64,000 bases of DNA from a virus, in the IMG/VR virus record IMGVR_UViG_3300035698_017726, positions 1 through 64,000 of that record; one strand, written 5' to 3'. This document shows positions 5,928-54,960 of this stretch, in pieces (the stretch's first letter is position 1; every line of letters begins with the position of its first letter). The notes under the pieces were generated by a model. It did no database searches, was not told the origin of the DNA, and saw only the letters and a program-made list of their open reading frames with translations. A program made the position numbers and the translations under genes.

Positions 5928-6384
5928 GGTGAGTCTCCAGTAGTTGCCAGAACCACTCTGCCGGTATCACGGCGTATTGCCTGCGCTCAGGACCGAATCT
6001 ATCGAGCTCAACCATGAAGACAGGAATCTGATCCCCCCTACAGGTAGCCTCAATCTTCTTCAGTTCCTCTAGCTTCAGCGAATAAGAGCGGTGTTTTGTG
6101 TACTTGTCCTCTTCTCTAACGTCCGAGGACTTTACGTCTCCCTTGTCGATGGGAGTAGAGCCAGAAGCGATGGTGGTACGTCCGCCGATCATCTTGGCGT
6201 TGGCTGCTTCCTGTTTGCCCGAAATGCGGCGAGTCTGAGGACGACGTTTCTTGGGGACGTATTCTTTCTTTACGGCCTCATAAGTCCTACATGTCCTAAG
6301 GCACTCGCCACACTTATAGCGTCCAATCATCCAAGATTTCAGATTACGAGAACCACAGTGCGGGCAGGTAGGCTCTATTCCCAA
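5908..6384 (-). CDS. Holliday-junction-resolvase-like PD-(D/E)xK nuclease with N-terminal zinc ribbon
   Basis: Residues 7-28 form a zinc ribbon (C-P-H-C, then C-G-E-C). From about residue 55 the protein follows archaeal Hjc-like and phage resolvases: G-K-Q-E (E58), A-K-M-I-G-G-R, K-G-D-V (D83), a catalytic E-D-K triplet (92-94), then S-Y-S-L-K-L-E-E-L-K-K-I. It starts at TTG 6384, inside the end of recA (10 nt overlap), with AAGG about 5 nt upstream. The reaction would be cleavage of branched DNA. This is a second junction-resolving candidate in the same operon as the RusA-like gene. The fold call rests on motif order and is fairly firm; the exact substrate is inferred. Confidence 0.7.
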   Translation of the reverse strand: MGIEPTCPHCGSRNLKSWMIGRYKCGECLRTCRTYEAVKKEYVPKKRRPQTRRISGKQEAANAKMIGGRTTIASGSTPIDKGDVKSSDVREEDKYTKHRSYSLKLEELKKIEATCRGDQIPVFMVELDRFGPERRQYAVIPAEWFWQLLETHRDQNDS

Positions 6385-20786: not shown

Positions 20787-21702
20787 TCCCACTGTCTATT
20801 ACTACTTCTCTGAAGAGATGCAGAAAGAAGCGCTCGAAGCTGGAGCCTTCAAGGACTTTGCTGGGAGCGTCGGTAGAGATGCCTTGAACGCGGCCAAGAA
20901 AGTCCCTGAGTTCTTGTCGAGTCAAGCGGGCAACCTTGCTGCCGCAGCTACTACTAACGACGCAGGCAAGTCTCTTCCCGTCGGCGAGCAGCTGAGGAAT
21001 GTGGGTGGCGCAGCTTGGAAAGGCATCAAGGCAATTCCAGGTGCTACACTCAACACCGCTGTGGATTCTGCCAAGAACGTGACCAAGCCGCTTCGAGACT
21101 TAGTTCGGCACCCAGTAGATACGGCGCAGGCGGGGTGGGGTAAGCTCAGCCCAGGGGTGATCAAGGCCCAAGCCGCTGCCCAAGCCGCAACGCAAAATAC
21201 AGGGCGAGCATATGGGTCCACGATAGGAGATACCAATAGTCTGTCGGATAGGTTGCGTAACAGCGGCTGGTTGGCCAATGTCGCTAAGTACCAGGGCGGC
21301 GCCGAGACTGAGATTGGGGATCACCTCTCTAGAGCGAGGAACACCATCGGACGTGCGCTGCCGGGTCAGAAGGCGATCTTTACAGGCACTACTGCCTTGA
21401 GCACCGCTAATGCTCTTCGGCAAAAGGAAGACAGTAGGACGGGTAGGCAGCTAGGACTAGGAGAACGCGTAGGACGCGCCGCCGGTAGTGTAGGTGGGGC
21501 CCTGGCCATGAATACTTTTGCCCCAGGAGGCAACTTCGCAGCCCGCATGATTGGAAAGAGGTATGCAGGTAGGATGATTGGAGGAGCTACCTCTAATGCA
21601 GGTCGCGTGGTAGATACTGCGGTGAACAAGGTACGCGGTAGACTACCCCAAGATGCCGCGCAGCGACGTCTGCAGTATCCTGCTGGGTACGGAGCCAGGT
21701 AA
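20776..21702 (+). CDS. Gly/Ala-rich virion protein with glycine-zipper segment
   Basis: The 308-aa product begins with an aromatic patch (V-Y-Y-Y-F) and Q-K-E-A-L-E-A-G-A-F. The middle is Ala/Gly/Asn-rich, with small-residue spacing (G-R-A-A-G-S-V-G-G-A-L) near residue 240 like membrane-inserting glycine zippers. Many Arg and Lys residues are scattered. Its TAA overlaps the portal ATG (TAATG). Possible internal or ejected protein; inference from composition. Confidence 0.6.
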   Translation: MPTDPTVYYYFSEEMQKEALEAGAFKDFAGSVGRDALNAAKKVPEFLSSQAGNLAAAATTNDAGKSLPVGEQLRNVGGAAWKGIKAIPGATLNTAVDSAKNVTKPLRDLVRHPVDTAQAGWGKLSPGVIKAQAAAQAATQNTGRAYGSTIGDTNSLSDRLRNSGWLANVAKYQGGAETEIGDHLSRARNTIGRALPGQKAIFTGTTALSTANALRQKEDSRTGRQLGLGERVGRAAGSVGGALAMNTFAPGGNFAARMIGKRYAGRMIGGATSNAGRVVDTAVNKVRGRLPQDAAQRRLQYPAGYGAR

Positions 21703-23672
21703 TGAACACTCTCTCTAGCGAATACAACAGGTTCAACCCCAGACCTACCTCTAGCGCAACAGGTGGTCGAGGGTTCGGTGTTCGCTACCCATCGCCCTTC
21801 TTCGACGTAGCTCAACAGTTCTTACCAGAAAACATACACCAGCTCCATGTCTGGTGTCGGTACTACTTCCTTACGAACCCCATCATCAACGTCGCCTGCC
21901 AGAAGATGGCGGAGTATCCAGTCACCAAGCTGGTGTATGAGACCGAAGATGAGAAGATCCAGAAGCTCTACTCCACGCTGGAGAGGAACCTACACCTCCG
22001 CCAGTTCCAAGTAGAGGTAGGCCTCGATTACTTCGTCTATGGCAATGCCTTCGTAAGCATCTGGTATCCGCTGGAGAAATACCTCCTCTGTACCAAGTGC
22101 AACAAGCGACACAGAGCCTCCAAGTCTCGTGAGTTCTATAAGTGGAAGGACTCCAAGTTTCAGCTGAAGTGCCCTGACTGTGGCCATGAAGGCTGGGCCA
22201 AGGAAATCGACCACTATCCCCGGAAGTTCAGAGAGATCCGTCTCATCAGATGGAACACCGAGAACATTTACCTCAAGCATAATGAGGTCACGGGTGCGAC
22301 CAAGTACTACTACAAGATCCCGAAGAGCATCATCAATGACGTGAAGATGGGAGACCGGGAGACCGTAGAGACAATGCCGTCGGCGTTCCTGGAAGCTATC
22401 CGTAAGGGCCGCTCTCTCCTCTTCAAGAACGACAACTTCTTTCACCTGAAGCGGCCGACTATCGCGCAGAAGGACCAGGGCTGGGGAGCTCCCCTCATCT
22501 TTCCTCTGCTCAAGGACGCGTTCTACCTGCAGGTGATGAAGAAGGCCCAAGAGACGCTGCTCATGGAGCACGTCGTACCTCTCAGGGTCATCTTCCCTGG
22601 AGCTTCTCAGGACGGAAACGCCGGCGCGTACAGTACGTACAACCTCCAGAACTGGAAGGAGAAGATCAATACTGAGCTCAGCCTCTGGAAGAGGGACAAC
22701 AACTACATCCCAATTCTTCCGGTCAACGTAGGCTTCCAGCAGTGGGGCGGTACAGCTAAGGCTCTGATTCTCCACCAGGAATTTAGGTTCACGGCGGAGC
22801 AGATGCTGGCCGGTGCCGGTATCCCGGTCGAGTTCGTATTCGGTGGCCTTCAGTGGAGCGGTACGAACACATCTCTTCGCGCACTGGAGAACATGTTCGT
22901 TGGGTACAACCTCCAGCGGCACGAGCTGATCAACGACTTTATTATCGGTAGCATCGCCGAGTGGATGGAATGGCCCAAGGTCAAGTCCAAGTTCGACCGC
23001 TTCAAGATGGCCGACGACCTGCAGAGGTCGATGTTCTACCTTCAGCTCAACCAAGCACAGAAGATCTCCGACCGTAGGCTTCTCGAAGAGATCGGTGAGG
23101 ACTTTGACGCTGAGAACGGAAGGATGGACGAAGAGCTCAAGCGTCAGCTCCAGACTCAGCGCAAGATGCAGGTGGCCTCCGCCGATATCCAGGGCGAGTC
23201 CATGCTTCGTCAGTCACGGTACCAGGCCAAGGCTACTGCTCTGCAGACCGAAGCACAGATGGAGGCCCAGTTCGCTACCCAGGCAAAGGCAGAAGCTCAG
23301 GCGCAGGGACAGCCTCCTGCGCCAGAACCTCCTACCACGGCTTTCGATCAACAGGGCCAGCCTGGAAGTGGGCCTCCTGGCACAGAACTTCCCCCCGGTA
23401 TGCAGGGCATGGGTTCCCCTCTTCAAGAAGGGCAAGGCGGCGTAGATCTGGCGTACATGGCCAAGAGGGCTGCTTCATATCTGAAGACCGTTCAGAAGGA
23501 GTCCGGTGACGACGCCATGTATCAGGAGCTCCAGAAGATGCAGATGGATAATCCTCCTCTGTACAAGCTAGTCATTCAGGTCCTGAACGACGGCGGCTCT
23601 AAGGATAACCCCATGAGCGCCCTAGAGAATCCGAACCCATCTGGTCAGGCTGCTCCTGCTAGAACCGTATAG
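21702..23672 (+). CDS. Portal protein with zinc-ribbon insertion
   Basis: Portals form the ring through which DNA enters and leaves the capsid. Residues about 100-120 (G-L-D-Y-F-V-Y-G-N-A-F-V-S-I) match the portal wing region. F-R-F-T-A-E-Q-M-L-A-G-A-G-I-P and L-R-A-L-E-N-M-F-V-G-Y-N (about 362-410) match the stem and clip core. A zinc ribbon (C130-x2-C133, C157-x2-C160) is inserted after the first domain. The last 130 residues are Gln/Pro/Gly-rich and carry the R-A-A-S-Y-L-K-T peptide. Length 656 aa is large for the family because of these additions. Coupled to the gene before by TAATG. Confidence 0.85.
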   Translation: MNTLSSEYNRFNPRPTSSATGGRGFGVRYPSPFFDVAQQFLPENIHQLHVWCRYYFLTNPIINVACQKMAEYPVTKLVYETEDEKIQKLYSTLERNLHLRQFQVEVGLDYFVYGNAFVSIWYPLEKYLLCTKCNKRHRASKSREFYKWKDSKFQLKCPDCGHEGWAKEIDHYPRKFREIRLIRWNTENIYLKHNEVTGATKYYYKIPKSIINDVKMGDRETVETMPSAFLEAIRKGRSLLFKNDNFFHLKRPTIAQKDQGWGAPLIFPLLKDAFYLQVMKKAQETLLMEHVVPLRVIFPGASQDGNAGAYSTYNLQNWKEKINTELSLWKRDNNYIPILPVNVGFQQWGGTAKALILHQEFRFTAEQMLAGAGIPVEFVFGGLQWSGTNTSLRALENMFVGYNLQRHELINDFIIGSIAEWMEWPKVKSKFDRFKMADDLQRSMFYLQLNQAQKISDRRLLEEIGEDFDAENGRMDEELKRQLQTQRKMQVASADIQGESMLRQSRYQAKATALQTEAQMEAQFATQAKAEAQAQGQPPAPEPPTTAFDQQGQPGSGPPGTELPPGMQGMGSPLQEGQGGVDLAYMAKRAASYLKTVQKESGDDAMYQELQKMQMDNPPLYKLVIQVLNDGGSKDNPMSALENPNPSGQAAPARTV

Positions 23673-24011: not shown

Positions 24012-24030
24012 TGGCTAAAGAGACGGCCAC

Positions 24031-24351
24031 CTAAATGGCCAGCAGCAAACACGGGGATTCGTACCCGCACTGCTGGCAGCAGCCGTCAGCCCAGTATCCT
24101 AGTGACATCATGCCCTCGGAGCACCGAGAGCAGAGCCACTTCGCCTGAGCCGCTTCAATGAGTTCCTCTACGAGCGGACAGCTGCCGCAGTCAACCCTTC
24201 CACAGAATGCTTTCTCTTCATCCACTAGGAGTAGAGGACAGTAAACTGAGATGGACGGTTCTGTACTGCCGGGCATGCTGGTAGGGAGGTCTGCCGGTTC
24301 CAGTAAGTCCCTTGCCGCTTCTCTAAGTAGTTTTTGGTATGGACTCGACAT
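24031..24351 (-). CDS. Cys-rich zinc-binding protein, 106 aa
   Basis: A minus-strand gene inside the plus-strand cluster. ATG 24351 overlaps the stop of the small membrane protein. It has a dozen Cys in pairs: C-G-R-V-D-C-G-S-C, then C-S-R-C, then C-C-Q-Q-C and a final C before L-L-L-A-I. These imply one or two zinc sites. The N-terminus is helical. No family is recognised. Confidence 0.55.
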   Translation of the reverse strand: MSSPYQKLLREAARDLLEPADLPTSMPGSTEPSISVYCPLLLVDEEKAFCGRVDCGSCPLVEELIEAAQAKWLCSRCSEGMMSLGYWADGCCQQCGYESPCLLLAI

Positions 24352-24433
24352 CTAGGCCATCTATCACATCTTTTAGGCCTAGAACGAATCCACACGCAAA
24401 CCCGAATACTATAATCCAGAGAGGGAAGTTCAC
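24323..24433 (-). CDS. Single-span membrane microprotein, about 36 aa
   Basis: From GTG 24433, overlapping the previous TGA as GTGA with AAGGA 4 nt upstream, the product is V-N followed by a hydrophobic span of about 17 residues (F-P-L-W-I-I-V-F-G-F-A-C-G-F-V-L-G-L) and a polar tail. An ATG at 24538 in the same frame would give 71 aa, but it would lie inside the 59-aa gene. Membrane location is inferred from hydrophobicity. It may be a lysis or exclusion peptide; no family match. Confidence 0.45.
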   Translation of the reverse strand: MNFPLWIIVFGFACGFVLGLKDVIDGLDVESIPKTT

Positions 24434-24609
24434 TTCTTCCTTGTACTCGCCGTTCCTTGGCTGGGCTCTTGCCCGCTTTTCTCTGTCCTCTGTTCCCCGT
24501 ATACTGCAGAACGGACCAGGTCTGCGAACTTCGCGCATGTACTGGGCCTGCTACTGCCTCCACTGCCTGTAGAAACTCCTGGAGGAGCGATTGGCTGTAG
24601 TGGTTTCAT
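24430..24609 (-). CDS. Pro/Ser/Gly-rich microprotein, 59 aa
   Basis: ATG 24609 opens a 59-codon frame ending TGA, overlapping the membrane microprotein start as GTGA. The first 25 residues are Pro, Ser and Gly-rich; the rest is polar and ends K-K. No clear Shine-Dalgarno is seen, so the gene is uncertain. It would be the first gene of a three-gene minus mini-cassette. Confidence 0.4.
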   Translation of the reverse strand: MKPLQPIAPPGVSTGSGGSSRPSTCAKFADLVRSAVYGEQRTEKSGQEPSQGTASTRKK

Positions 24610-24678
24610 GATAAAGACAGAAAGGGGTTAGAACCTCTCCTGCCACAGAACTTATGCCTAAAACCAGTGAGCTATTGA
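24610..24678 (+). promoter_or_regulatory. Upstream region of the RNA polymerase gene
   Basis: The 69-bp gap between the divergent mini-cassette and the polymerase gene holds AACTTATGCC (24649-24658), matching the element before 18931 and close to that before 41043. No AGGAG-like ribosome binding site lies within 15 nt of the ATG (the nearest is the weak GTGAG), so translation of the polymerase may be limited. Confidence 0.45.
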
Positions 24679-27600
24679 ATGGCCAACCTAAATCCAGAGG
24701 GCGCATTCGCCTCCCTCAAAGAAAGAACCAAGGATGCCATCAAAGCCCAGTTCCCCTACGTCGGAAAGAAGCATCGACTAGAGCTGGACAATCTCGAGGT
24801 AGTAGACTCCGGAGATAACCCTTCTTCGCTCTACCATGTCGACAACATTCAGTCTCAATATGATGCCAAGACCAAGGGTAGAACGTGGGCTGTCCCCATC
24901 AAGGCCGACCTTCGGCTAGTGAATGTGGATACCGGAAAGGTGATGGACAGATCCTCCATCACCCTCGGCAGACTTCCCAAGCTCACTCGTAGGTACACCT
25001 ACATCATCGATGGACAGGAGCGTCAGCACGACTCCGTCTTCCTTCTTCGAGCTCGGCCGTACCACATCAAGACCGATAGTGGCGCCATTCAGGCAAAATG
25101 GAACCTGGCCAAGGGCCATGGCTTTGACCTAACCATCGACCCATCGACGGGTGTGATGAAGATGAAGGTCGGCACCACCAATATCGCTCTGTACCCCGTA
25201 CTCAAGGCCATGGGGCTATCCGACTCGGATCTGGAGGCTAAGTGGGGACGCAGGGTCCTTGAGACCAATAAGGCCAAGGGTAAGCCAGAAGAGCTGCTGA
25301 AGTTCCACAGGTTCTTCAGCCGGCGCTACAAGGGGTACTCGACTCCGAACGTAGATGAAGCCGCAGCCTTCGTCCGAACCACCTTCGAGGCCACAGAGCT
25401 CCGCCCCGACGCCATGAAGACGGCCTTCGGAAAGGAGTTCACCAAGGTAGATGGAGAGAATCTTCTCCTGTCTTCAGCCAGAATCCTCAACATCAGTAGA
25501 GGTAAGGAAGAGGAAGACGATAGGCAGTCCCTAGCCTCCAAGGACCTGACCGGAACAGAGGACTTCATCGTCAAGTTCATTGCGCGCGGCACCAGAGACA
25601 TGAGCCGTAAGGTCAAGAACAACCTGGACCGGGCCGATAAGATCTCCGACATCATCTCGCCGAATATGTACACGCGCACCATCCTGAGCACCTTCCAGGA
25701 AGCGCAGCGCCCAGACCAGACAAATCCGCTCAACTTCATCTCTGGCTACCAGAGAACCACTATCCGTGGCGCCTCCTACGGCGGCATCAAGGGAGAGCGC
25801 GTCAACCTGGACAGGGACAAGCAGATCAACCCATCCCACCTAGGCTTCTTGGATCCTGTGCAGACGCCTGAGTCTCAGGACACTGGCGTAGTCCTTCATC
25901 TGCCCCTGGGTGTACGGAAAGAAGGAACCCAGCTCAAGATTGACGTCTACGATGTCAAGAAGAAGGCCTGGGTGGCTGTCACTCCGGGAGACCTAGAGTT
26001 CGAGGTTGTTGCCTACCCGGACCAGGTCAAGTGGGTAGATGGAAAGCCTAAGCCCATCGCCAAGAACGTAGCTGTCTACGATAAGGACCGCCAGACGGCT
26101 AAGCGTCCTTGGACCTCAGTCAGGTACATCTTGGCCTCCACCAAGGGACTCTTCTCCTTCGGCGCCAACCTGATTCCCTTCCTAGGAAACAACAACGGAA
26201 ACCGCGCCATGATGGGCGTGAAGCAGATGGAGCAGGCTGTCTCACTGGTGAACCGGGAGCAGCCCTTGGTCCAGACCAAGGCCAGCAAGAACATGTCCTT
26301 CGAGGAAGCGGTCGGCTCGTTCAGTGCCCACTTCTCTCCCATAGACGGGACAGTTACCTCTGTCACCAAGGATGAGATCGTCATTCAGGGCGCCAACAGG
26401 AAGGTCTCACGCGTCCAGATCTACAACAACTTCCCCCTCAACGGAGGAAAGGGTGTCCTCAACGCTATCGCCAAGGTGAAGCGCGGAGAGAAGGTAAAGA
26501 AGGGACAGCTCATAGCGGACACCAACTTCACTGAGAACGGGCATCTTGCTCTTGGGGCTAACATCAGAGTGGCGTACATCCCCTACAAGGGGCTGAACTT
26601 CGAGGACGGTATCGTTGTCGCTGAGTCGGCAGCGAAGAAGCTGTCCTCTATGCACATGCACCAGAACTCGGTCACTATCTTCCCCGGCATGGTGGTCAAC
26701 AAGCAGAGATGGGCTGACTACGCTCTCCCAGAACTGGCCACCCAAGAGCGGATGGCCAAGCTGGACAATGATGGTGTGGTCAAGGAAGGAGAAAAGGTCA
26801 AGGAAGGGGACATCCTCGTTGCGCTACTAGCTCCCAGTGAGAGAACCAAAGACGACGAAGACGTAGCGTCTATCCGTAAGTCTCTGGTCAAGGACTACAA
26901 AGATCGGTCATTGTCATGGGACCACTCGTACCCAGGTGAGGTCGTCAAGGTCATCAGAAGCGGCAAGAAGATCATGGTCCATGTGAAGACCGAGGAGTCT
27001 CTAGCCGTAGGAGACAAGCTCACTGCTCGTCACGGCAACAAGGGCATCGTCAGCCGCATTCTTCCTGACCATGAGATGCCTCACACCAAGGACGGCAACG
27101 CTGTCCAGGTTCTGTTGAACCCAGCAGGTGTGCCTTCTCGTATGAACGCTGGGCAGATCCTAGAGACCGCTGCCTCCAAGATTGCCAAGAAGACCGGCAA
27201 GCCCTATGTCGTGGAGAACTTTGAGCACGGTAAGGACTACACGCAACAGGTCAAGGACGACCTGAAGAAGCACGGGCTGACCGACACCGAGGAGCTAATC
27301 GATGCCAAGACCGGTAGGTCACTAGGACAGGTCCTAGTAGGTGACCAGTATCTGCTGAAGCTTCACCATATGGTAGAGAAGAAGATGACGGCTAGGTCCT
27401 TTGGTGGATCCTACAACGTCCACGGGACTCCTCCAGGTGGGGCCGGTATCCCTGGTGGAGGCCAGCGTTTTGATCAGCTGTTGACCTACGCCATGCTAGC
27501 TCATGGCGCCAAGCACAACCTACGTGAGGCCTACACCTTCAAGAGCGACGCGGACCAAGACGAGGTCTGGTACGCCGTGATGACAGGCAGACCCCTACCC

Positions 27601-30600
27601 GACCCACAGCCCACTAGAGGTATGAAGAACTTCACTACCTATCTGAAGGCGATGGGCATCAATACAGAGAAGGAGGGAGACAAGTACGTCCTATCTCCCA
27701 TGACCGATAAGCAGACCACTGCCATCTCCAATGGCTCGTTGGAGTTCCCAGAGAAGGCACTGAAGGCAAAGGGCCTACGAACCATGGAGGAGGCCGGAGG
27801 TCTCTTCGACCCACGTAAGACCGGCGGCCTAAGTGGTCAGTTCTGGACACACATGGAGCTCGAGGAGAGGATCCCCAATCCCATCTTCGAAACGGCTATT
27901 CAGTCTCTACTCGGCATGAAGAAGAAAGAGTTCGAGCATATGGTTTCCGCCAGTGGTGGAGACGGAAAGCGCTCTGGCTTCGAGATCCTAGCAGAGCAGC
28001 TGCGAGTCATTGACGTTCCCTCTGAGCTGAAGAAGACGGAAGAGTCTCTTCCCAAGCTCAAGGGTCCGCAGCTAGCCAAGGCGTACAGAAAGGTACGGTA
28101 TCTCCGCGCGCTGAAGAGCAACAACGTCTCTCCTGTGGACGCGTACACCAACAAGGTGCTGCCGGTAGTTCCGCCATCGGTGCGCAGAGTAAGCATCGGC
28201 TTGGATGGGAGTCAGATCTTCGATAGCCTCAACGGGCTGTACAGGTCCGTAGGTCAGATCAATGGACAGCTAAAGAATGCTGACCCATCTACCCCATATA
28301 GTGAGATGCAGGCCCAGCGAGCTCACCTGTACGATGCTGTTAGGGCTCTTCGCATGACCGGCATGGATATGGGCGAGGGTACCAAGTCGCGACACCACTT
28401 CGGCCTGATGGAGAAGATGAAGGGCCAGGCGCCCAAGCATTCTTTCTTCCAGGACGGAGTACTGAAGCGTCGGCAGGACCTGTCAGGTAGGTCAACCATC
28501 ATTCCCGAGCCCGACATGGGACTGGATGAGGTGGGCATTCCTCTGCCAATGGCCTTGGAGCTGTATCGTCCCTTCGTACGTAGAGAGCTCTTCCTCAACC
28601 GAGGCTACGCGCCCAACCAAACTGGGCAGCTCGTTGATAAGAAGGACCCTGCAGCTATTGAGGCGCTCCACAGAGTCATCAATGAGCGTCCGGTTCTGCT
28701 GAAGAGAGACCCAGTACTCCACAAGTTCGGAGTCATGGCCTTCAAGCCGAAGATCATCTCCGGTAAGGCCATCGCCATTCACCCGCTGGTGACTGGCGGG
28801 TTCAACGCTGACTTCGATGGGGATGCCATGAGCATCTTCGTTCCGGTCTCTCAGGAAGCCGTTGATGAGGCCAAGACTAAGCTACTGCCGTCCAAGAACC
28901 TGTTCTCCCCTACCCACGGCGGCATCATGCCGGTGCCGGGTCAGGGGTCTCTACTTGGGCTGTACCAGGCTACCAAGTGGGGAACAGTCACTGCTGTCCC
29001 TACTGGCATCACTCCAACGAAGGCTATCTCGATGCTCCGAGGAGGGAAGCTCAAGCCCTCTGACGTCATCACCATTGGCGGAAAGACGACTACTCCCGGA
29101 CGACTACTCCTGGATTCGGAGCTCCCCAAGGACATGCGAGGGAACAAGACTCTTCTGTACGACCAGACCTTCCGTCTGGACAAGAGAGGACTGAAGAGAC
29201 TGCTGACCGAGGTCGGAAAGAAGCATCCTAAGAGCTTCCCAAGGGTAGTGGATGCATGGAAGGACCACGGCAACACGCTCGCCTACATGAACGGCAGCTC
29301 CATCACGCTGAACGACATCCATGACGGCAAGGAGATTAGGGACCAGGTCCTAAAGAAGTACAAGCTCGAAGAGGACTCCATCCGGTCCAGTACATTGGAC
29401 CGGAAAACCAAAGACAAGAAGGTAGTGGCCCTGTATAGCAAGGCTATGGGTGAGCTGGAGACAGTAGGCAACGTTGCGTATACTCGTAGAGGGGACAACA
29501 ACCTTCATGAGTGGGCCGCATCCGGAGCTCGTGGAGGCTGGTCCCAGTTCAGTCAGCTAGTCATGGGGCCAATGCTGGTTCAGGATTCCAAGGGTAAGCC
29601 TGTTCCTGTTCCCATCACCAAGTCCTTCGGCGAGGGACTATCCGTTCCTGAGTACTGGGCCTCTCTACACGGTGCCAGAAAGGGGACCCTCGATAGGGCT
29701 ACTGAGACTGAGAAGCCTGGCTCGCTGACCAAGGACATTATCAACACCGTCATCAATCACCACGTCACTGCGGATGACTGCGGTACCGATAAGGGCGCCG
29801 CCATGAACCCCATGGACGCGGATTGTACGGACAGGTACTTGGCCAAGGATGTGAAGCTCAAGGGTGGAGACATCATCGCGGCCCGAACCTTGCTGACTCC
29901 TCCGTCTCTTACCCGGATTCGGAACTCCAACATCCAGAAGATCGTAGTGCGGTCTCCTCTTCACTGCCGTCAGGCCTCCGGTATCTGCGCAAAGTGCTAC
30001 GGACTCAACGAGAACGGTAAGCTCTACTCGGTAGGCACCAACGTTGGTGTCATCTCAGGGAACGCCTTGGGAGAGCCTGTCACTCAGCTCACCATGAAGA
30101 CCTTCCACACCGGAGGTACCGTCACTGGGGGCGGTGAGGATGGCGATGTAATCGATAAGTTCAAGAGGGTTCAGCAGCTTTTCTTCGTACCAAAGAAGCT
30201 TCCAGGAGCCGCAACGTTGGCCACAAAGAGCGGTACCATCACTAAGGTGGTGGCCAACAGGTCACTTGGCGGCATGGATGTCTATATCGACGCTAAGCGT
30301 CACTATGTTCCTGCTGGCCTGACGCTACTGCCTAGCGTCTCCAAGGGACTGACAGTCAAGAGAGGAGATCCCCTGTCTTCTGGTCCAATCAATCCCCATT
30401 CTCTGCTGAAAGAGACCGGGAACGTCAACGCGGTACGCGCGTACATGACCGATGAACTACAGAAGACCTACCCTTCCGGGATTAGAAGGCGTAATATTGA
30501 GACCGTCGTTCAGGCAATGACCAACCTGACACAGATTGAGGCGGCAACTGACCACCCAGAATACGATAGAGGCCAGATGCTTCCGCTGTCTCAAGTAGAG

Positions 30601-30852
30601 GCGGCCAACAGACAGGCAAAGATGACTGGAGCCACTCCGATTCTACACAAGCCTATGCTCAAGCCAATGACAGAGATGCCGTTGGCGGGGCAGGAAGACT
30701 GGTTGGCCCGTCTTAACTACCGTCGCCTAGAGAACACGTATACTGAGGGGGCCGCCCAAGGCTGGTCCTCAGACATCCATGGGCACCCAATCGCTGGCCT
30801 CGCTCACGGCGCCGAGTTTGGGACGAAGCCATTTAAGGAGATCAAGTCATGA
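24679..30852 (+). CDS. Single-chain RNA polymerase: fused beta and beta' subunits
   Basis: A continuous 2,057-codon frame covers both large subunits of bacterial-type RNA polymerase. Beta part: the fork/rif-like region (about 355-400, G-F-L-D-P-V-Q-T-P-E-S), R784-H-G-N-K-G, L-N-P-x-G-V-P-S-R-M-N, and the beta end G-G-Q-R-F (about 928). Beta' part begins near residue 1039 (G-L-F-D-P-R-K-T-G), then L-S-G-R-S-T-I (switch 2, about 1269), N-A-D-F-D-G-D (1376-1382) with the three catalytic Asp, C1701, C1763, C1770 and C1773 (second zinc site), and F-H-T-G-G (1809-1813) at the trigger helix. The first beta' zinc finger is absent. Together the bacterial subunits usually exceed 2,600 residues, so this is reduced. 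No alpha, omega or sigma gene is seen nearby. Confidence 0.93.
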   Translation: MANLNPEGAFASLKERTKDAIKAQFPYVGKKHRLELDNLEVVDSGDNPSSLYHVDNIQSQYDAKTKGRTWAVPIKADLRLVNVDTGKVMDRSSITLGRLPKLTRRYTYIIDGQERQHDSVFLLRARPYHIKTDSGAIQAKWNLAKGHGFDLTIDPSTGVMKMKVGTTNIALYPVLKAMGLSDSDLEAKWGRRVLETNKAKGKPEELLKFHRFFSRRYKGYSTPNVDEAAAFVRTTFEATELRPDAMKTAFGKEFTKVDGENLLLSSARILNISRGKEEEDDRQSLASKDLTGTEDFIVKFIARGTRDMSRKVKNNLDRADKISDIISPNMYTRTILSTFQEAQRPDQTNPLNFISGYQRTTIRGASYGGIKGERVNLDRDKQINPSHLGFLDPVQTPESQDTGVVLHLPLGVRKEGTQLKIDVYDVKKKAWVAVTPGDLEFEVVAYPDQVKWVDGKPKPIAKNVAVYDKDRQTAKRPWTSVRYILASTKGLFSFGANLIPFLGNNNGNRAMMGVKQMEQAVSLVNREQPLVQTKASKNMSFEEAVGSFSAHFSPIDGTVTSVTKDEIVIQGANRKVSRVQIYNNFPLNGGKGVLNAIAKVKRGEKVKKGQLIADTNFTENGHLALGANIRVAYIPYKGLNFEDGIVVAESAAKKLSSMHMHQNSVTIFPGMVVNKQRWADYALPELATQERMAKLDNDGVVKEGEKVKEGDILVALLAPSERTKDDEDVASIRKSLVKDYKDRSLSWDHSYPGEVVKVIRSGKKIMVHVKTEESLAVGDKLTARHGNKGIVSRILPDHEMPHTKDGNAVQVLLNPAGVPSRMNAGQILETAASKIAKKTGKPYVVENFEHGKDYTQQVKDDLKKHGLTDTEELIDAKTGRSLGQVLVGDQYLLKLHHMVEKKMTARSFGGSYNVHGTPPGGAGIPGGGQRFDQLLTYAMLAHGAKHNLREAYTFKSDADQDEVWYAVMTGRPLPDPQPTRGMKNFTTYLKAMGINTEKEGDKYVLSPMTDKQTTAISNGSLEFPEKALKAKGLRTMEEAGGLFDPRKTGGLSGQFWTHMELEERIPNPIFETAIQSLLGMKKKEFEHMVSASGGDGKRSGFEILAEQLRVIDVPSELKKTEESLPKLKGPQLAKAYRKVRYLRALKSNNVSPVDAYTNKVLPVVPPSVRRVSIGLDGSQIFDSLNGLYRSVGQINGQLKNADPSTPYSEMQAQRAHLYDAVRALRMTGMDMGEGTKSRHHFGLMEKMKGQAPKHSFFQDGVLKRRQDLSGRSTIIPEPDMGLDEVGIPLPMALELYRPFVRRELFLNRGYAPNQTGQLVDKKDPAAIEALHRVINERPVLLKRDPVLHKFGVMAFKPKIISGKAIAIHPLVTGGFNADFDGDAMSIFVPVSQEAVDEAKTKLLPSKNLFSPTHGGIMPVPGQGSLLGLYQATKWGTVTAVPTGITPTKAISMLRGGKLKPSDVITIGGKTTTPGRLLLDSELPKDMRGNKTLLYDQTFRLDKRGLKRLLTEVGKKHPKSFPRVVDAWKDHGNTLAYMNGSSITLNDIHDGKEIRDQVLKKYKLEEDSIRSSTLDRKTKDKKVVALYSKAMGELETVGNVAYTRRGDNNLHEWAASGARGGWSQFSQLVMGPMLVQDSKGKPVPVPITKSFGEGLSVPEYWASLHGARKGTLDRATETEKPGSLTKDIINTVINHHVTADDCGTDKGAAMNPMDADCTDRYLAKDVKLKGGDIIAARTLLTPPSLTRIRNSNIQKIVVRSPLHCRQASGICAKCYGLNENGKLYSVGTNVGVISGNALGEPVTQLTMKTFHTGGTVTGGGEDGDVIDKFKRVQQLFFVPKKLPGAATLATKSGTITKVVANRSLGGMDVYIDAKRHYVPAGLTLLPSVSKGLTVKRGDPLSSGPINPHSLLKETGNVNAVRAYMTDELQKTYPSGIRRRNIETVVQAMTNLTQIEAATDHPEYDRGQMLPLSQVEAANRQAKMTGATPILHKPMLKPMTEMPLAGQEDWLARLNYRRLENTYTEGAAQGWSSDIHGHPIAGLAHGAEFGTKPFKEIKS

Positions 30853-31517: not shown

Positions 31518-32507
31518 ATGCGTCGATTTGGATCAAGAGGTTCCGCACGTCGGAACCTTACTCCTGCGTCCGTGACGGAGGCCCAGATTCTGGATGTCAA
31601 TCCGGACGCCTGGACTATGACGTTACGGACTGTAGCTAACGATGAGATCTTTACCCACGTTCCCATCGTCTCGACATACCTGCATCATTTCGCCGGTGAG
31701 GGCATTCATTACATGCCTGAGGCCGGCACTATGTGCTGGATATGTAAGCCTAGTGAGGGCGATACCAAGCCCTTCATCGTGGCCTTCAGGCCTCCCGCTG
31801 ACGAGAAAGGAACCTTCAGAGCCAACAGACCTGTTCTGAACCCAGGGGACGTCCACATCTCTACTAGAGACGGCAACGCTATCAAGATTCGTAGAGGCGG
31901 CGTCATCGAGATTGAGGCTAGCCCCCTGGCTAGGACCTTCTGGCTTCCAGTGGCGAACAAGATCATGTCCTTTGCGGCCAACCACGAGATTGTAACTCTT
32001 GGTGGGTCACAGAAGTGGAGGACCGCTCGTCCAGAAGAAGACGAGGACGGGAATCACGCCACCAAGTACACGCTCAAGGCCAAAGAGTTCTCCGAGCACA
32101 AGCAGCAGGTGGTTCAGCTGGACGCCGGCGGGCAAATAGATGGTGGAGTCTTCAAGCTCCAAGTCTTTGCCGATGGAAACATTGGCAGCGAAGACGCCCT
32201 AGATGCTCAGTTCTCTGCGACTATCGATAAAGAAGGTAAGGTCGCCATAGAAGCTGACGATGTGGACATCCACCTACATGAAGGAAAGACTGTCAGAATC
32301 TTCGACTCAGATGGCTCTGCGACAGAGGGAGTTGTCCTCGGGAAGACTTTTCTCACCGACCTTCTGACGTTCTTTACGGGTCTTCAGACTATACTTGGTA
32401 CGATAGGGCTCACTGTTCCGGGCCTCTCCGATATGATCACGAAAACTACCACTACTCTCGGTGTCGAGGGTGCCCCCTACCTCTCTACCAGAACGAAGAC
32501 AGAATAG
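31518..32507 (+). CDS. Baseplate spike / gpV-like protein
   Basis: The 329-aa product looks like the baseplate assembly protein V and gp45-type spikes of contractile tails. An N-terminal OB-like domain has G-E-G-I-H-Y-M-P-E-A-G-T-M-C-W. Next comes R-P-V-L-N-P-G-D-V-H-I-S-T-R-D-G-N-A-I-K-I-R, then repeated G-x-I-x-I-E-A beta-helix units. The C-terminal segment E-G-V-V-L-G-K-T-F-L-T-D-L is the usual end helix of such proteins. It would sit at the tail tip and pierce the outer envelope. ATG directly follows the previous TAA. Confidence 0.7.
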   Translation: MRRFGSRGSARRNLTPASVTEAQILDVNPDAWTMTLRTVANDEIFTHVPIVSTYLHHFAGEGIHYMPEAGTMCWICKPSEGDTKPFIVAFRPPADEKGTFRANRPVLNPGDVHISTRDGNAIKIRRGGVIEIEASPLARTFWLPVANKIMSFAANHEIVTLGGSQKWRTARPEEDEDGNHATKYTLKAKEFSEHKQQVVQLDAGGQIDGGVFKLQVFADGNIGSEDALDAQFSATIDKEGKVAIEADDVDIHLHEGKTVRIFDSDGSATEGVVLGKTFLTDLLTFFTGLQTILGTIGLTVPGLSDMITKTTTTLGVEGAPYLSTRTKTE

Positions 32508-41042: not shown

Positions 41043-42839
41043 ATGTCTGTTGTTTCGAAAGAGTGGCACGGAGAGACCATCAGTAGATGGGTCACTCCTG
41101 GCTACGTATACGAAGATTACGACGAACAATGGGACTATGAGGACCCCGCACCAGAGATTGAGGACTGGGAAAGAGAGGCCGCATTAGAAGAAGTAGCGGA
41201 CAAAATCAACATGACGTGTTCTCAGTTCGTAGAGAACACCATCAAGGTGCCCAACGCAGACACGCGCACCATGGAGTACTTCTCCTACGCAGAGCGCGGC
41301 TATTTGAGGCGGGTCTACGACACCTCGTCGCGAAGAACTCTGCTCATGTGTGGCCGTCAGGTCGAGAAGAGTACGTCCCTAGGGAACAGAGCTCTAGCCG
41401 TCTCGTGCCTGATCCCTCACTTCAAGGTGCTGTATGTCTCTCCCTCCAGTACGCAGACCAAGGAGTTCTCGAAGACACGGCTAAAGGAGGTCTCTGAGAC
41501 GTCCCCGGACATCAAGGTGTGGTTCCCTTCCCACCTCACGGACAACGTCTTCGAAAAGAAGGCAATCAACAGAAGCCAGATTACTCTGCGCTACGCATTC
41601 CTCAATGCTGACCGTTGTCGAGGCCTGAGCTCCGACCTGATCTGTCTAGACGAGTTCCAGGACATCCTCCTGGACAACATTCCCGTTATCGAAGAGTCCG
41701 CCTCTCACTCTCCCTTCAAATGGTTTACCTATTCCGGTACTCCAAAGTCGCTGGACAACCCCATTGAGGTGTTCTGGCAGACTCGGTCCACGCAGAATGA
41801 GTGGGCAGTTCCTTGTGAGCGTCACGGCCACCCCAAGCAGCCCGGTACGTGGCACTGGAACATCCTCAGTGAGAAAAACATCGGTATTCAGGGCCTCATC
41901 TGCGATAAGTGCGGAAAGAGGATTTACCCCGACCACCCGATGTCTCAGTGGGTGCGTACAGCTACTCCTGACCCCAAGTTCGAAACCTTCGAAGGGTTCA
42001 GAATTCCTCAGCTTATGGTCCCCTGGATTGAGTGGACCAACATCCTCACGAAGTACAACGACTACTCCAGAGCTCGGTTCTTCAACGAGGTTCTGGGCCA
42101 GTCATTCGATTCCGGCCAGAGACCACTGACTCAGAAGGACGTCCAGGACAACTGCGACGTGAACTTCAAGATTTCGCCTGAATTCATCAAGGAGCTACAG
42201 GCGACCAGAATGTCCGGCAACAAGATCTATGCTGGCATCGACTGGGGACAGGACTCCAGCAATTCCTATACGGTCCTTTCTCTCGGCACCTACATTGAGG
42301 GACGGTTCACGATCTTCTTCATCCATAAGTTCATTGGCGCTGAGTCCGGGGCCAAAGAGCAGATGATCAAAATTAAGAAGATCATCAATGGCTTCGGAGT
42401 AGATAGAATCGGCGTTGACTACGGTGGAGGCTTCTGGCCAAACGATGAGCTCCTGCGCGCCTACGGCTCTAGTCGTGTCTTTAGGTACCAGTATTCGTCT
42501 CCGAAGCACCACCTGCAATGGGACACCAAGCTAGGCAGATACCTCGTCCATCGCTCAGAAGTAATGAGTGCGGTCTTCAACTCGATTAAGCGTCGTACCG
42601 TATTCAGGTTCCCCATGTGGACCGACTTCCAGCCCTTCGCCAAGGATATGTTGGCTATCTTCTCTGAGTACAATGAGCGCACCAGAATGACTGAGTATAA
42701 GAAGTCGCCGAACACCACGGATGACTCCTTCCACTCCATCCTGTTCTGCTTCCTTGCCTCGATGATTGACTATCCCCGTCCAGAGATCCTGGTCCCCAGT
42801 GTCCAGACAGACATGGAGATAAATAGACGACACAGCTAA
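41043..42839 (+). CDS. terL: Terminase large subunit
   Basis: It cuts concatemeric DNA and pumps it into the head. The 598-aa protein has an adenine-side helix, the P-loop C-G-R-Q-V-E-K-S-T (103-111), Walker B L-I-C-L-D-E-F (199-205), and an RNase H-fold nuclease with G-I-D-W-G-Q-D (D400), G-V-D-Y-G-G-G and a late D-D-S-F-H-S. A zinc-like cluster (C-E-R-H-G-H, C-D-K-C) lies between ATPase and nuclease. Glu stands where Gly precedes the P-loop Lys. It is alone on the plus strand between two minus blocks; no small terminase was identified. Confidence 0.9.
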   Translation: MSVVSKEWHGETISRWVTPGYVYEDYDEQWDYEDPAPEIEDWEREAALEEVADKINMTCSQFVENTIKVPNADTRTMEYFSYAERGYLRRVYDTSSRRTLLMCGRQVEKSTSLGNRALAVSCLIPHFKVLYVSPSSTQTKEFSKTRLKEVSETSPDIKVWFPSHLTDNVFEKKAINRSQITLRYAFLNADRCRGLSSDLICLDEFQDILLDNIPVIEESASHSPFKWFTYSGTPKSLDNPIEVFWQTRSTQNEWAVPCERHGHPKQPGTWHWNILSEKNIGIQGLICDKCGKRIYPDHPMSQWVRTATPDPKFETFEGFRIPQLMVPWIEWTNILTKYNDYSRARFFNEVLGQSFDSGQRPLTQKDVQDNCDVNFKISPEFIKELQATRMSGNKIYAGIDWGQDSSNSYTVLSLGTYIEGRFTIFFIHKFIGAESGAKEQMIKIKKIINGFGVDRIGVDYGGGFWPNDELLRAYGSSRVFRYQYSSPKHHLQWDTKLGRYLVHRSEVMSAVFNSIKRRTVFRFPMWTDFQPFAKDMLAIFSEYNERTRMTEYKKSPNTTDDSFHSILFCFLASMIDYPRPEILVPSVQTDMEINRRHS

Positions 42840-44091: not shown

Positions 44092-44799
44092 TTATGACCT
44101 CCTACGGAGAGCCTTTGTAACTGCGTCTTGGATAGAGCCAGGAACTTGGTCTATGGCTAGACGGGTTACTTCTGGGTCCAGAGAGGTGTAGCCCTCGGCG
44201 TAGATGACTGCGGAGACCCTGAGACGTCTACGCCCTTCGGCAAGTTGCTTATGTAGTGCTTGCAGTTCCAGAGACTGGGCGTACTCTTTCATGTCCACTA
44301 CGTGCAAGGTCATCTGCCTACATAGCAGCAGAAAAGGCTTCCATGGTTTCCTATCCTCAGTTGCCTTGGAGATTGTCCGGAAATCGTCTTCATCCATCCT
44401 GAAGAAGACCTCTACCCAAGGCTGAATCTCGTCTACGACCCAATCTCCTCTCCCTAGCTGCTGGATACATACTGTATGGAGCTGCTTGGCGTATTCTGGA
44501 GCCATACTCAAAGGATTGGACTTAGTGTCCAGTACCCGCAGAACAGTCTCCATTTGCGCCTCTAGCCGACGCATCCGCATCTTCATCTGGAGTACCTCTT
44601 TACGGGAGACTAGAGATTGCTTACCCAATTCCTCCTTCTCTCTCCGGAACTCTTCCAGTTCTGTGGCATCCAGCCACTTTCTGTTGTCGCCCTTACGTTT
44701 ACGGCCGTATAGGAGGCCCTGACTCAGGTAGCCACGGATAGTTCTGGTAGAAACCCCTAGTCTTTTGGCTGCATCTTCTATGGTAAGGTCGTTTTTCAA
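44092..44799 (-). CDS. Helix-turn-helix (MerR-like) DNA-binding protein
   Basis: Residues 5-50 match a winged helix-turn-helix of the MerR/excisionase kind: L-T-I-E-D-A-A-K-R-L-G-V-S-T-R-T-I-R-G-Y, then G-D-N-R-K-W-L-D-A-T-E-L. A coiled coil (about 55-90) and a larger helical domain follow; 235 aa in all. TTG 44799 has AGGAG 7 nt upstream. It could regulate the cassette or the divergent plus-strand head genes, or be a small-terminase-like DNA-recognition protein, since none was found; inference. Confidence 0.7.
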   Translation of the reverse strand: MKNDLTIEDAAKRLGVSTRTIRGYLSQGLLYGRKRKGDNRKWLDATELEEFRREKEELGKQSLVSRKEVLQMKMRMRRLEAQMETVLRVLDTKSNPLSMAPEYAKQLHTVCIQQLGRGDWVVDEIQPWVEVFFRMDEDDFRTISKATEDRKPWKPFLLLCRQMTLHVVDMKEYAQSLELQALHKQLAEGRRRLRVSAVIYAEGYTSLDPEVTRLAIDQVPGSIQDAVTKALRRRS

Positions 44800-53228: not shown

Positions 53229-53792
53229 ATGGCCGGAACCTATATCTCAATCCTGCAGCCAGGTTACTCCACTCTGTGGACGCGTGACCTGCTGTACACG
53301 CCAGGCACCAATGAAAGTGCCTCCATCAACCCCTTCGATCCCAACGATGATCGACCCCTCGTAGAGGGTGAGTGGCTAGAGCATTCGTCTACGGTACAAA
53401 ACCGCGTCTCACGCGGCGGCGCCAATGGTGCCGGTGCTGGAGCATGTACTGCTCCAGGTATCAAAGAAAACGAAGGCATGAACCCCTCGTATATGTACTT
53501 CATGGAACAGGGACGGTACGACGCGCAAGCAACTAAGCGCGTTCACATGATCTTGGGCCCCTACGGATACGAGTTCCGTACCAAGCTCTGTGACGATACC
53601 GTGGCTATTCCGGTGAACACCGCTCTTACCGTCTGGGACTGGGATGGCCCGGCAGGCGCATGGGGCTTGGTACGTCGTGTTCTTGGAGCTCGCGTAGATG
53701 CGGCTTCTTGGACCGTTGGTCGCGTTGTTCGTGTCTTTGGCACAAACGACGTTAGCGTCATCTTCATGCCTGGTTCCGGCCACGCGGCCTAA
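53229..53792 (+). CDS. Capsid decoration or minor capsid protein candidate
   Basis: A 187-aa beta-rich protein (V-I-F-M-P-G-S-G-H at the end, repeated W/Y-G). It sits directly before the major capsid gene with a very strong ribosome binding site, which suggests high expression. No E-K-x-A peptide is present. Gly-rich loop G-G-A-N-G-A-G-A-G at about 64-72. Decoration proteins are often encoded here, but no family match is claimed. Confidence 0.6.
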   Translation: MAGTYISILQPGYSTLWTRDLLYTPGTNESASINPFDPNDDRPLVEGEWLEHSSTVQNRVSRGGANGAGAGACTAPGIKENEGMNPSYMYFMEQGRYDAQATKRVHMILGPYGYEFRTKLCDDTVAIPVNTALTVWDWDGPAGAWGLVRRVLGARVDAASWTVGRVVRVFGTNDVSVIFMPGSGHAA

Positions 53793-53802
53793 GGAGTACA
53801 CC

Positions 53803-54960
53803 ATGGATTACACTGCTGAAATGGTCAACTCCGGCTTCCTAGAGAGACTGGACACCGATGGCCCCACTAAGGTGGCCGCCAACACCCTCAACTACATCAA
53901 GGACAGGTTGCGTGAAGCGAGCTTCGCCGACATGATCGTCCCCGCTCAACGTGTTGTGCGTGGCGATCTACAGCGTAGTACCGAGCACGACACCATGGTC
54001 AAGATCGTGGACATCGAGCCCGGCTCACGCGCCATGAGCTTGAACTTCCGTGGCCAGCCCGAGGCCGTGTACATCACCGGTAAGCGCTATGCGATCACCT
54101 TCTGGACCATCTCGTCCATGAAGTTCGAGATCGTCGAGCAGGAGCTGATGGCGTACGAGATGCCTGTGACCAAGATCATTGAGGAGAACAGCCTCAAGGA
54201 TATGGTTGAGGTAAAGGACCGCGAGTTCCTGTACCACGTCGAGGCCTGCATCGAAGCTATGCAGAGTGAGGGTAATGCTGGCGCCACCGCGTTCAACACC
54301 ACGAACGTGAACCTCGGTCCCGCGACCGTGGTTGGTGTTTCCAAGCTGAAGGGCGAGCTCGCTCTCCAGCAGGTGACTGACGACTTCGTGTCGTACGCCA
54401 TCTCCCGTCCTGACATCGTCAAGATCAAGAAGCTGCTCAAGCGTCAGATTCTGGATGCCGCCGGTAACGTCGTGCGCCAGGGACGTCTCAAGCCAGCTCT
54501 GATGCTGATGACTGAGTCGGACACCGATGACTTCGACCAGTGGACCCATGAGGACTTTGGTGACAGGCTCCAGTCTGACACCACTACCGACGGGTACACC
54601 TACAACAAGGTCCTAGGTCTGCGCATCATCCGCACGATCAAGAACGACATCCTTCGTGAAGGCAACGTCTACATCTTCACCAGCCCTGAGTTCTTCGGTA
54701 GGAACTACATCCTCAACGATGTGAAGTTCTATATCGACAAGATCGCTAACCGGATCTTCTGGCAGGCCTGGATGGACATTGGTATGGGCTTCGGAAACAT
54801 CGCTTCCGTAGTCAAGCTTGAGCTCTACTCTGGCTCCACCATCACTGGTGCTACCGATACCGGCTTTGCGGCTGCCATCCCGGTTGAGGAAGAGGAAATC
54901 GGAGCTCAGAACAACAAGGCTGCAGACGGTCTGACCTTCCCCAGCATCACCGTCTACTAG
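53803..54960 (+). CDS. Major capsid protein (HK97-fold)
   Basis: From ATG 53803 (AAGGAG 6 nt upstream) the 385-aa product has the expected layout of HK97-like capsid proteins: an N-terminal helical arm (L-N-Y-I-K-D-R-L-R-E-A-S-F-A-D), a long spine helix region, a mixed alpha/beta P-domain and a beta-rich A-domain with F-T-S-P-E-F-F-G-R-N-Y. Position after protease, scaffold-like and decoration-like genes and a double hairpin after the stop fit a highly expressed capsid gene. The family is called from length, context and layout rather than a strict motif. Confidence 0.8.
   Translation: MDYTAEMVNSGFLERLDTDGPTKVAANTLNYIKDRLREASFADMIVPAQRVVRGDLQRSTEHDTMVKIVDIEPGSRAMSLNFRGQPEAVYITGKRYAITFWTISSMKFEIVEQELMAYEMPVTKIIEENSLKDMVEVKDREFLYHVEACIEAMQSEGNAGATAFNTTNVNLGPATVVGVSKLKGELALQQVTDDFVSYAISRPDIVKIKKLLKRQILDAAGNVVRQGRLKPALMLMTESDTDDFDQWTHEDFGDRLQSDTTTDGYTYNKVLGLRIIRTIKNDILREGNVYIFTSPEFFGRNYILNDVKFYIDKIANRIFWQAWMDIGMGFGNIASVVKLELYSGSTITGATDTGFAAAIPVEEEEIGAQNNKAADGLTFPSITVY

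Follow-up and report, generated by a model that had tools for sequence, protein, structure and literature searches.

A single-chain beta-beta' RNA polymerase and candidate sigma partners in a lineage of tailed phages

Introduction

How does a tailed phage come to encode the two large subunits of a bacterial-type RNA polymerase (RNAP) as one protein, and how might such an enzyme choose its promoters? The question is raised by a gene in the first 64,000 nucleotides (the window) of IMG/VR virus record IMGVR_UViG_3300035698_017726. The window makes up 56% of the record, which is 115 kb long, linear and possibly a fragment. Fused rpoBC genes, with beta and beta' in one chain, occur in Helicobacter and Wolbachia; these polymerases are cellular and retain alpha, omega, the zinc finger and the flap tip. 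Among phages, crAss-like gp66 and P23-45 gp96 are virion RNAPs. The bacterial-type RNAPs described earlier from phages include sigma-less enzymes of many chains (phiKZ), enzymes of beta plus beta' (mReC) and very divergent single chains (crAss, P23-45).

Results

An intact polymerase in one frame

The ORF at 24679-30852 (+ strand) runs uninterrupted from ATG to stop and encodes a 2057-aa single-chain beta-beta' DNA-directed RNAP, as identified from its frame, Pfam domains, alignment, structural models and relatives. An initial annotation, made from the sequence alone, had read beta and beta' landmarks in order along these 2,057 codons, and motif positions and Pfam placed all of them where it had put them. 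Profile searches returned the beta domains (Rpb2_3 at aa 346-408; Rpb2_6 at aa 593-921, E=5e-68; Rpb2_7 from aa 927) followed by those of beta' (a weak Rpb1_1; Rpb1_2 at aa 1331-1400, 3e-27; Rpb1_5 at aa 1653-1959, 1e-24), and in alignment the protein is co-linear with RpoB plus RpoC along nearly its entire length. The RpoB-like half covers aa 1 to about 1000 (24679-27678, +), as delimited by alignment with E. coli and Firmicutes RpoB, the Rpb2_3/6/7 matches and comparison of its model with Thermus thermophilus beta. The RpoC-like half, from about aa 1010 to 2057 (27706-30849, +), was recognized by Pfam, alignment and comparison of its model with RpoC. They join at about aa 995-1040 (27661-27798, +), where the alignment passes from the last part of E. 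coli RpoB to the beginning of RpoC, and no long linker intervenes; AlphaFold confidence is 70-92 in most blocks of this region. Mean pLDDT of the models is 85, and the structure prediction called for in the initial annotation yielded confident matches to both subunits in the PDB (T. thermophilus beta, 4oin_C, E=1.5e-72; RpoC structures, E down to 5e-64).

The fused ORF is an intact beta-beta' RNAP with its whole catalytic core. In the beta half, the active-site segment RHGNKG (aa 784-789; 27028-27045, +) was found by motif search and alignment; K780 and K788 align with E. coli beta K1065 and K1073 and are kept in 66/66 fused sequences, and counterparts of E. coli beta R678 and R1106 are also kept in the fused RNAP. 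The catalytic Asp triad, on which the initial annotation had staked its reading, is present in NADFDGD (aa 1376-1382; 28804-28824, +; motif search and alignment), where D1378, D1380 and D1382 correspond to E. coli D460, D462 and D464 and are invariant in all 66 fused sequences. The bridge helix spans aa 1656-1691, including HGARKG (29644-29751, +), as placed by alignment and by helix 657-692 of the beta' model (offset 999). GEPVTQ lies at aa 1798 and the FHTGG of the trigger loop at aa 1809-1813 (30103-30117, +; motif search and alignment), with H1810, the equivalent of E. coli H936, kept in 65/66 fused sequences. The second beta' zinc site (C1701, C1763, C1770 and C1773; 29779-29997, +) aligns with E. 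coli C814, C888, C895 and C898, each cysteine being kept in 62 of the 66. The hallmarks of two-barrel RNAPs are thus all present: DxDxD, two basic beta-barrel residues, bridge helix, trigger loop and fold.

Departures from the bacterial core

Hallmarks of the bacterial RNAP core are missing all the same: the enzyme is a single chain, alpha and omega were not detected, and it has neither the first beta' zinc finger nor a flap-tip helix. Loss of the zinc finger had been noticed from the sequence and is seen throughout the lineage. All four of its cysteine positions fall inside a deletion, E. coli C70, C72, C85 and C88 have no aligned counterpart in any of the 77 lineage members compared, and no CxC...CxxC was found at this place in the 128 fused sequences checked. 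The flap is reduced to a beta-hairpin (aa 753-773; 26935-26997, +; alignment and model secondary structure), with strands at 753-761 and 764-773 and no intervening helix in the model. The clamp helices of beta', the coiled coil on which sigma docks, are retained at aa 1183-1227 (28225-28359, +; beta' model helices 184-200 and 208-228, offset 999), and the docking contacts E. coli R275 and E295 are replaced by I and Q and are not conserved. Because the enzyme lacks the flap-tip helix, to which sigma region 4 binds, and these clamp-helix residues are changed, sigma docking must differ from that of E. coli, and promoter contacts may be altered as well.

A widespread phage lineage

Two scans of IMG/VR recovered 128 fully fused loci (102 distinct sequences). 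Alignment queries were required for these scans, as a single-sequence scan with poorly conserved patterns gave no matches. More than 100 distinct relatives with a single frame of this kind rule out a chance ORF or a one-off assembly error. In a related subgroup, to which Salmonella phage Arash and Vibrio phage D69 belong, the beta-beta' junction is the same and the chain is interrupted a second time, beyond the Asp triad. In a tree confined to phage and bacterial RNAPs, the fused and split phage enzymes form a clade that has 100% SH-aLRT support and excludes both Carin-5/YerA41 and the 15 bacterial RNAPs sampled. The phylogeny therefore clusters the polymerase with phages, as the initial annotation had anticipated. 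Close identity to the host enzyme was not seen: the nearest bacterial RNAPs found share about 30% identity with it and fall in their own group at 100% support. The common clade, junction and portal-RNAP gene order place the window's enzyme with that of Arash in one widespread lineage. The view of an independently fused, trimmed polymerase thus holds for the fusion, the trimming and the tailed phage; the fusion extends across a large lineage (128 loci) and is not unique to this phage.

Each of 23 records inspected carries one PF00562 gene. T7-type RNAP (PF00940) gave no match, and none in the controls either. Relatives of the Carin-5/Y65 phages in IMG/VR were few and partial. Several candidates were discarded during these searches. 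L236, at first sight a case of beta and beta' on separate genes, differs from L224 only by a frameshift; PHROGs 24349 and 25354 matched strongly and were set aside as phage evidence, their lengths being those of Firmicutes RpoB and RpoC; and L004, L005 and L007 appear to be bacterial RNAPs filed under 'phage'.

Genomic surroundings

The neighbours in the window are those of a tailed phage (TerL, DNA polymerase A, a DnaB-type helicase, a UvsX-like recombinase, a head protease and a weak portal match). Directly 5' of the RNAP gene lies a portal-like protein (21702-23672, +; phrog_2833 portal, E=1e-4). BLAST comparison of the gene neighbours of RNAP loci placed homologues of it just 5' of RNAP in about 65 loci, including Arash gp204, annotated 'portal' (profile E=1e-131), and throughout the lineage the RNAP and portal genes are neighbours within a conserved block of structural genes. 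The gene that follows (31518-32507, +) encodes a 329-aa protein, possibly baseplate or spike from a weak Phage_base_V match; its homologues (49 loci, mostly less than 500 bp from the RNAP stop) follow RNAP in most fused-RNAP phages. A terminase large subunit of the GpA ATPase type (41043-42839, +; phrog_675, E=2e-60; PF05876, E=2e-7) and a probable major capsid protein (53698-54960, +; phrog_2522, E=3e-5; no Pfam match to PF07068) lie further downstream. A search upstream of 52 of the phage's genes found no shared promoter motif, and only tRNA motifs stood out.

Sigma factors without alpha or omega

As the initial annotation had stated, neither alpha nor omega was detectable in the window's record or its relatives: the alpha N-domain was found in 0/54 records of the lineage vs 13/14 controls, and no omega match exceeded the cut-off in 33 records. 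The accompanying claim that there is no sigma gene, and that promoter recognition must work differently, did not stand. Outside the window, at 85383-86180 (- strand) of the record, a 266-aa protein was identified by Pfam and PDB match as a sigma70-family member with regions 2 and 4. Sigma70_r4 matched with E=5.7e-7, region 2 scored below the cut-off (17.8 of 24 bits), and SigA in the PDB was matched with E=3.5e-12 across aa 58-255. Direct searches with this protein recovered almost no orthologues, and profiles were needed. A second sigma type, that of Arash gp10, occurs in 19/23 large lineage records (E<1e-30) and is absent from two unrelated control records. It was not found in the window's 115-kb, possibly incomplete record, which carries only the 266-aa sigma.

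Discussion

Comparison with known phage polymerases

The crAss-like gp66 and P23-45 gp64/gp96 enzymes likewise hold both barrels in one polypeptide, but are reported to be unrecognizable by RpoB/RpoC models or to show little similarity beyond DxDxD (PMC7481178, PMC10770324); the Rpb2_6 match and near full-length co-linearity with RpoB plus RpoC set the window's RNAP apart from the crAss/P23-45/YonO type. The mReC phages (Weinheimer and Aylward 2020, PMC7481178) are also uncultured and tailed, and their bacterial-type beta and beta' can be aligned and form a clade away from cells. By their published description they have beta and beta' subunits, a T4-type major capsid protein (PF07068) and a PF03237 TerL, whereas the window has one chain, a PF05876 TerL and no PF07068 match. 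The virion and non-virion RNAPs of phiKZ/AR9-type jumbo phages likewise do without alpha or omega, but their beta and beta' are divided among at least four chains, with two RNAPs per phage and no sigma (PMC7824862), in contrast to one chain in the window phage, one RNAP and a sigma.

Arash and D69 share with the window the clade, the beta-beta' junction and the portal-RNAP order; a gp10-type sigma is a further trait of most large members of the lineage. Arash (Gp206 plus Gp216) is a split-gene relative, about 32% identical and not fully fused. In both phages, beta and the N-terminal half of beta' form one 1525-aa chain and the C-terminal part of beta' is a separate gene, with TKHDAK in the trigger loop where the window has TFHTGG. 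Gp206 is labelled 'subunit beta' in the record and the paper, and the portion of the paper drawn on here does not mention the fusion (PMC10585845).

A proposed mechanism and its rivals

We consider it probable that a core RNAP was fused in the ancestor of this lineage and works with phage sigmas. The single chain would fold as both crab-claw halves, so that the alpha dimer and omega, which help assembly in bacteria, would not be needed. Phage-encoded sigma70-family proteins would choose the promoters: a gp10-like sigma, packaged with the polymerase, would initiate transcription once the DNA has entered the cell, and as infection proceeds the enzyme would be redirected by another sigma (Arash gp196-like or the 266-aa protein of the window's phage). 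On this reading the single chain would be active, the sigmas would serve it, and labour would be divided between them into early and late. In the fuller picture, the 2057-aa chain and a phage sigma would form a two-gene holoenzyme, a complete and promoter-specific bacterial-type RNAP free of alpha and omega. It would travel in the virion with one sigma, switch targets after infection through a second, and dock sigma without a flap-tip helix. This picture seems to us evenly balanced between right and wrong. That the gene was recently captured from a host, or reflects contamination or mis-assembly, is extremely improbable: certain GenBank entries labelled 'phage' that matched RNAP do resemble contaminating bacterial sequence (L004, L005), but the low identity to bacterial enzymes, the fully supported separate clade and the shared fusion and gene order in more than 100 phage relatives argue against it.

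Phage sigmas that act on the host RNAP are well known (T4 gp55), and the sigmas found here could do the same while the phage RNAP uses another, unrecognized specificity factor. The lack of a flap-tip helix and of the classic clamp-helix contact residues would fit, as would the report of RNAP-bearing jumbo phages without sigma (PMC7824862). We regard this as unlikely, since the clamp helices themselves are retained in the model, the gp10-type sigma is conserved alongside this RNAP in most large records, and in Arash it is co-packaged with RNAP (PMC10585845). The Arash authors name carry-over of an abundant protein as a possible source of RNAP in particles, and other enzymes also appear in the virion proteome (PMC10585845). 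The RNAP might accordingly be a non-virion enzyme made during infection for middle and late genes; no second RNAP for early genes was found, and the host enzyme could transcribe those. This reading appears rather unlikely given the proteome reported for Arash, where the fused beta-beta'N chain Gp206 has the most spectra of all proteins (3516, vs 1333 for the major capsid protein). The beta' C-terminal chain Gp216 (1210) and sigma Gp10 (467) are detected too, whereas the proteome table does not list Gp196, the second sigma (PMC10585845). The place of the RNAP gene beside the portal also speaks against a non-virion enzyme. By analogy with Arash, the polymerase of the window's phage is probably packaged in the virion.

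Significance

With a single chain of bacterial character whose sigma partners are conserved, the lineage fills a gap among phage RNAPs. It appears able to dispense with alpha and omega as well as with the zinc finger and flap tip, which makes the minimum set for a sigma-dependent RNAP a testable question, and Arash offers a cultured entry point. Its packaged RNAP-sigma pair suggests a phage that initiates transcription independently of the host enzyme.

The fused polymerase gene and its catalytic core

The fused RNA polymerase (RNAP) gene is an uninterrupted frame of 2057 codons, from ATG to stop, at 24679-30852 on the plus strand, as the initial annotation had described, and the bacterial-type beta and beta' landmarks it named all lie in order at their expected places. 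Pfam likewise gave beta and then beta' domains, and bacterial beta' chains were the top PDB sequence matches (E about 1e-108). When 66 fused and 11 two-piece phage proteins (the latter with the same beta-beta' junction and a second break within beta') were aligned by MAFFT with E. coli and Firmicutes sequences, they proved co-linear with RpoB and then RpoC, the junction being short (about aa 995-1040). The Asp triad, beta K1065/K1073, R678, R1106 and Q688, and beta' R352, R425 and R780 were invariant in 66/66 fused proteins; the trigger-loop His was present in 65/66, and each second-zinc Cys in 62/66. AlphaFold models built with 28 aligned lineage members as input (mean pLDDT 84.9 for aa 1-1200 and 85.0 for aa 1000-2057) matched bacterial structures in Foldseek, namely those of RpoB (E=1.5e-72) and of RpoC (E=5e-64). 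At the level of sequence, these data show a fused, catalytically complete chain. Immediately 5' of the gene, 667 bp (24012-24678) hold no convincing gene and are a possible regulatory region.

The first beta' zinc finger, which had been reported as lacking, was absent in 77/77 aligned lineage members, and its Cys pattern was found at the expected place in 0/128 fused sequences. E. coli lineage-specific insertions are likewise missing. Of the beta flap, only a hairpin is left: the alignment has a gap in place of the bacterial flap tip, and the AlphaFold model has strands at 753-761 and 764-773 with no helix in between. The clamp helices are retained in the model (aa 1183-1199 and 1207-1227), and the alignment shows changes at E. 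coli positions R275, N274, R278 and E295, which are sigma contacts in that species. Because the flap tip is absent, region-4 docking is predicted to be weak or different, and promoters are perhaps dominated by a -10-like element; no promoter motif was found for testing this prediction.

Distribution and relationships of the lineage

A profile-type query of IMG/VR returned at least 339 relatives. Among 80 that were fetched, 65 had a reading frame of 1850 aa or longer, most spanning the entire window protein; in a subgroup, one frame of 1470-1500 aa runs to about aa 1468 and a second, of 600-640 aa, supplies the remainder. A second scan gave full-length fused loci in 76/80, some on contigs shared with the first; combined, the scans yielded at least 128 fused loci and at least 102 distinct sequences. 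Cultured two-piece members are Salmonella phage Arash (Gp206, 1525 aa; Gp216, 606 aa) and Vibrio phage D69.

In a tree of 56 rows and 1914 columns (LG+G4, short search), 27 fused and 11 two-piece proteins formed a single group (100% SH-aLRT, branch 0.53), separate from 15 bacterial RNAPs (100%) and also from Cobetia Carin-5/Yersinia YerA41 (100% SH-aLRT). The two-piece proteins form one clade (100%) at the unresolved base of the group, the deep branching order not being settled by this model and short search. Since the beta-beta' junction is common to both architectures and cellular beta' is intact, we infer that the ancestor was fully fused and that the break arose later in the two-piece group. 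Recent host capture was ruled out by the nearest bacterial matches, which were about 30% identical in a sample of GTDB genomes.

Several records vary from this pattern. Intein-like insertions of 350-500 aa, several beginning with Cys and ending in His-Asn, lie in the DFDGD motif, in the trigger loop and close to the rifampicin pocket (after aa 398 in locus L013, after window aa 1383-1384 in L038 and L041, and after H1810 in L016 and L041). At L204:2587-8658 (+), the RNAP is one 2024-aa chain only if TGA is read as Trp; of its 11 in-frame TGA codons, one or more fall at a Trp position of bacterial RpoB. Contig L236, otherwise protein-identical to the intact L224, carries a frameshift near 5980-6010, exactly at the beta/beta' junction, which is either a sequencing error or a real fission. 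Two unverified 'phage' records with bacterial-looking rpoB/rpoC (OR846602.1, L004; OR844998.1, L005) are probably bacterial contamination, and PHROGs 24349/25354 may rest on contaminant-type bacterial sequences.

The mReC phages were reported to combine T4-type capsids with beta and beta' subunits (PMC7481178). RNAPs of the phiKZ type are described as split and without sigma (PMC7824862), and those of crAss and P23-45 as highly divergent single chains (PMC7481178, PMC10770324). On profile comparison, the window's TerL and head protein do not match the mReC signatures. In the literature searched, with subscription journals mostly outside it, no phage RNAP that is bacterial-like and joins beta to beta' was described, which falls short of proving novelty.

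Sigma factors, alpha and omega

The initial annotation had seen no alpha, omega or sigma gene. This held for alpha and omega: by profile search, the alpha N-terminal domain family was found in 0/54 records and in 13/14 control genomes, and omega did not rise above cut-off in any of 33 records, so that the lineage, as judged by profiles, lacks both. It did not hold for sigma, which is encoded in the same genome as the fused RNAP. The record is 114,832 bp long, of which the window takes in 64 kb; outside the window, at 85383-86180 (minus strand), lies a 266-aa sigma70-family protein with Sigma70_r4 above cut-off (E=5.7e-7), Sigma70_r2 below it (E=0.003) and a single-sequence PDB match to C. difficile SigA (E=3.5e-12 over aa 58-255). 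One small gene away is a GyrB-like type II topoisomerase subunit (83,064-84,950, minus strand; L010:1064-2950), and 44 tRNA genes, with all 20 amino acids represented, occupy 87,353-106,016 (L010, L011).

Arash has both sigma types, gp10 and gp196. All 23 large records carry a single PF00562 gene, and 19 of them matched a gp10-like sigma profile at E<1e-30, as neither of two unrelated control records did. Some of the 19 contributed rows to the profile; non-contributing records (e.g., G009, G012, G026, G032, G036, G045 and G049) matched at 1e-35 to 1e-70. By this profile the gp10-like sigma is absent from the window's record, G003, G017 and G030; another sigma is present in the window's record and in G030.

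Gene neighbourhood and a model for transcription

The RNAP gene follows a portal-like gene and precedes genes for a 329-aa protein (possibly a baseplate protein), an 803-aa protein and a 495-aa protein, with TerL further on; each neighbour keeps its position and orientation in roughly 40-65 loci. The window gene immediately upstream of RNAP is a homologue of Arash Gp204, which is annotated as a portal. A MerR-type DNA-binding regulator lies near the terminase gene (44092-44799, minus strand).

Published virion data place the RNAP and one sigma in Arash particles. In the available text of that study (PMC10585845), Gp206 was the most detected protein (3516 spectra, 128 unique peptides), with 1210 spectra for Gp216, 467 for sigma Gp10 and 1333 for the major capsid protein; Gp196 is missing from the virion list. 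The same text proposes two explanations, packaging for early transcription or carry-over, and makes no remark on a beta-beta' fusion (PMC10585845).

These observations suggest a model in which the single chain would be active alone, because fusion would take over alpha-directed assembly, and in which the phage sigmas would serve the fused RNAP. The packaged enzyme with the gp10-type sigma would begin transcription, and the other sigma would act later.
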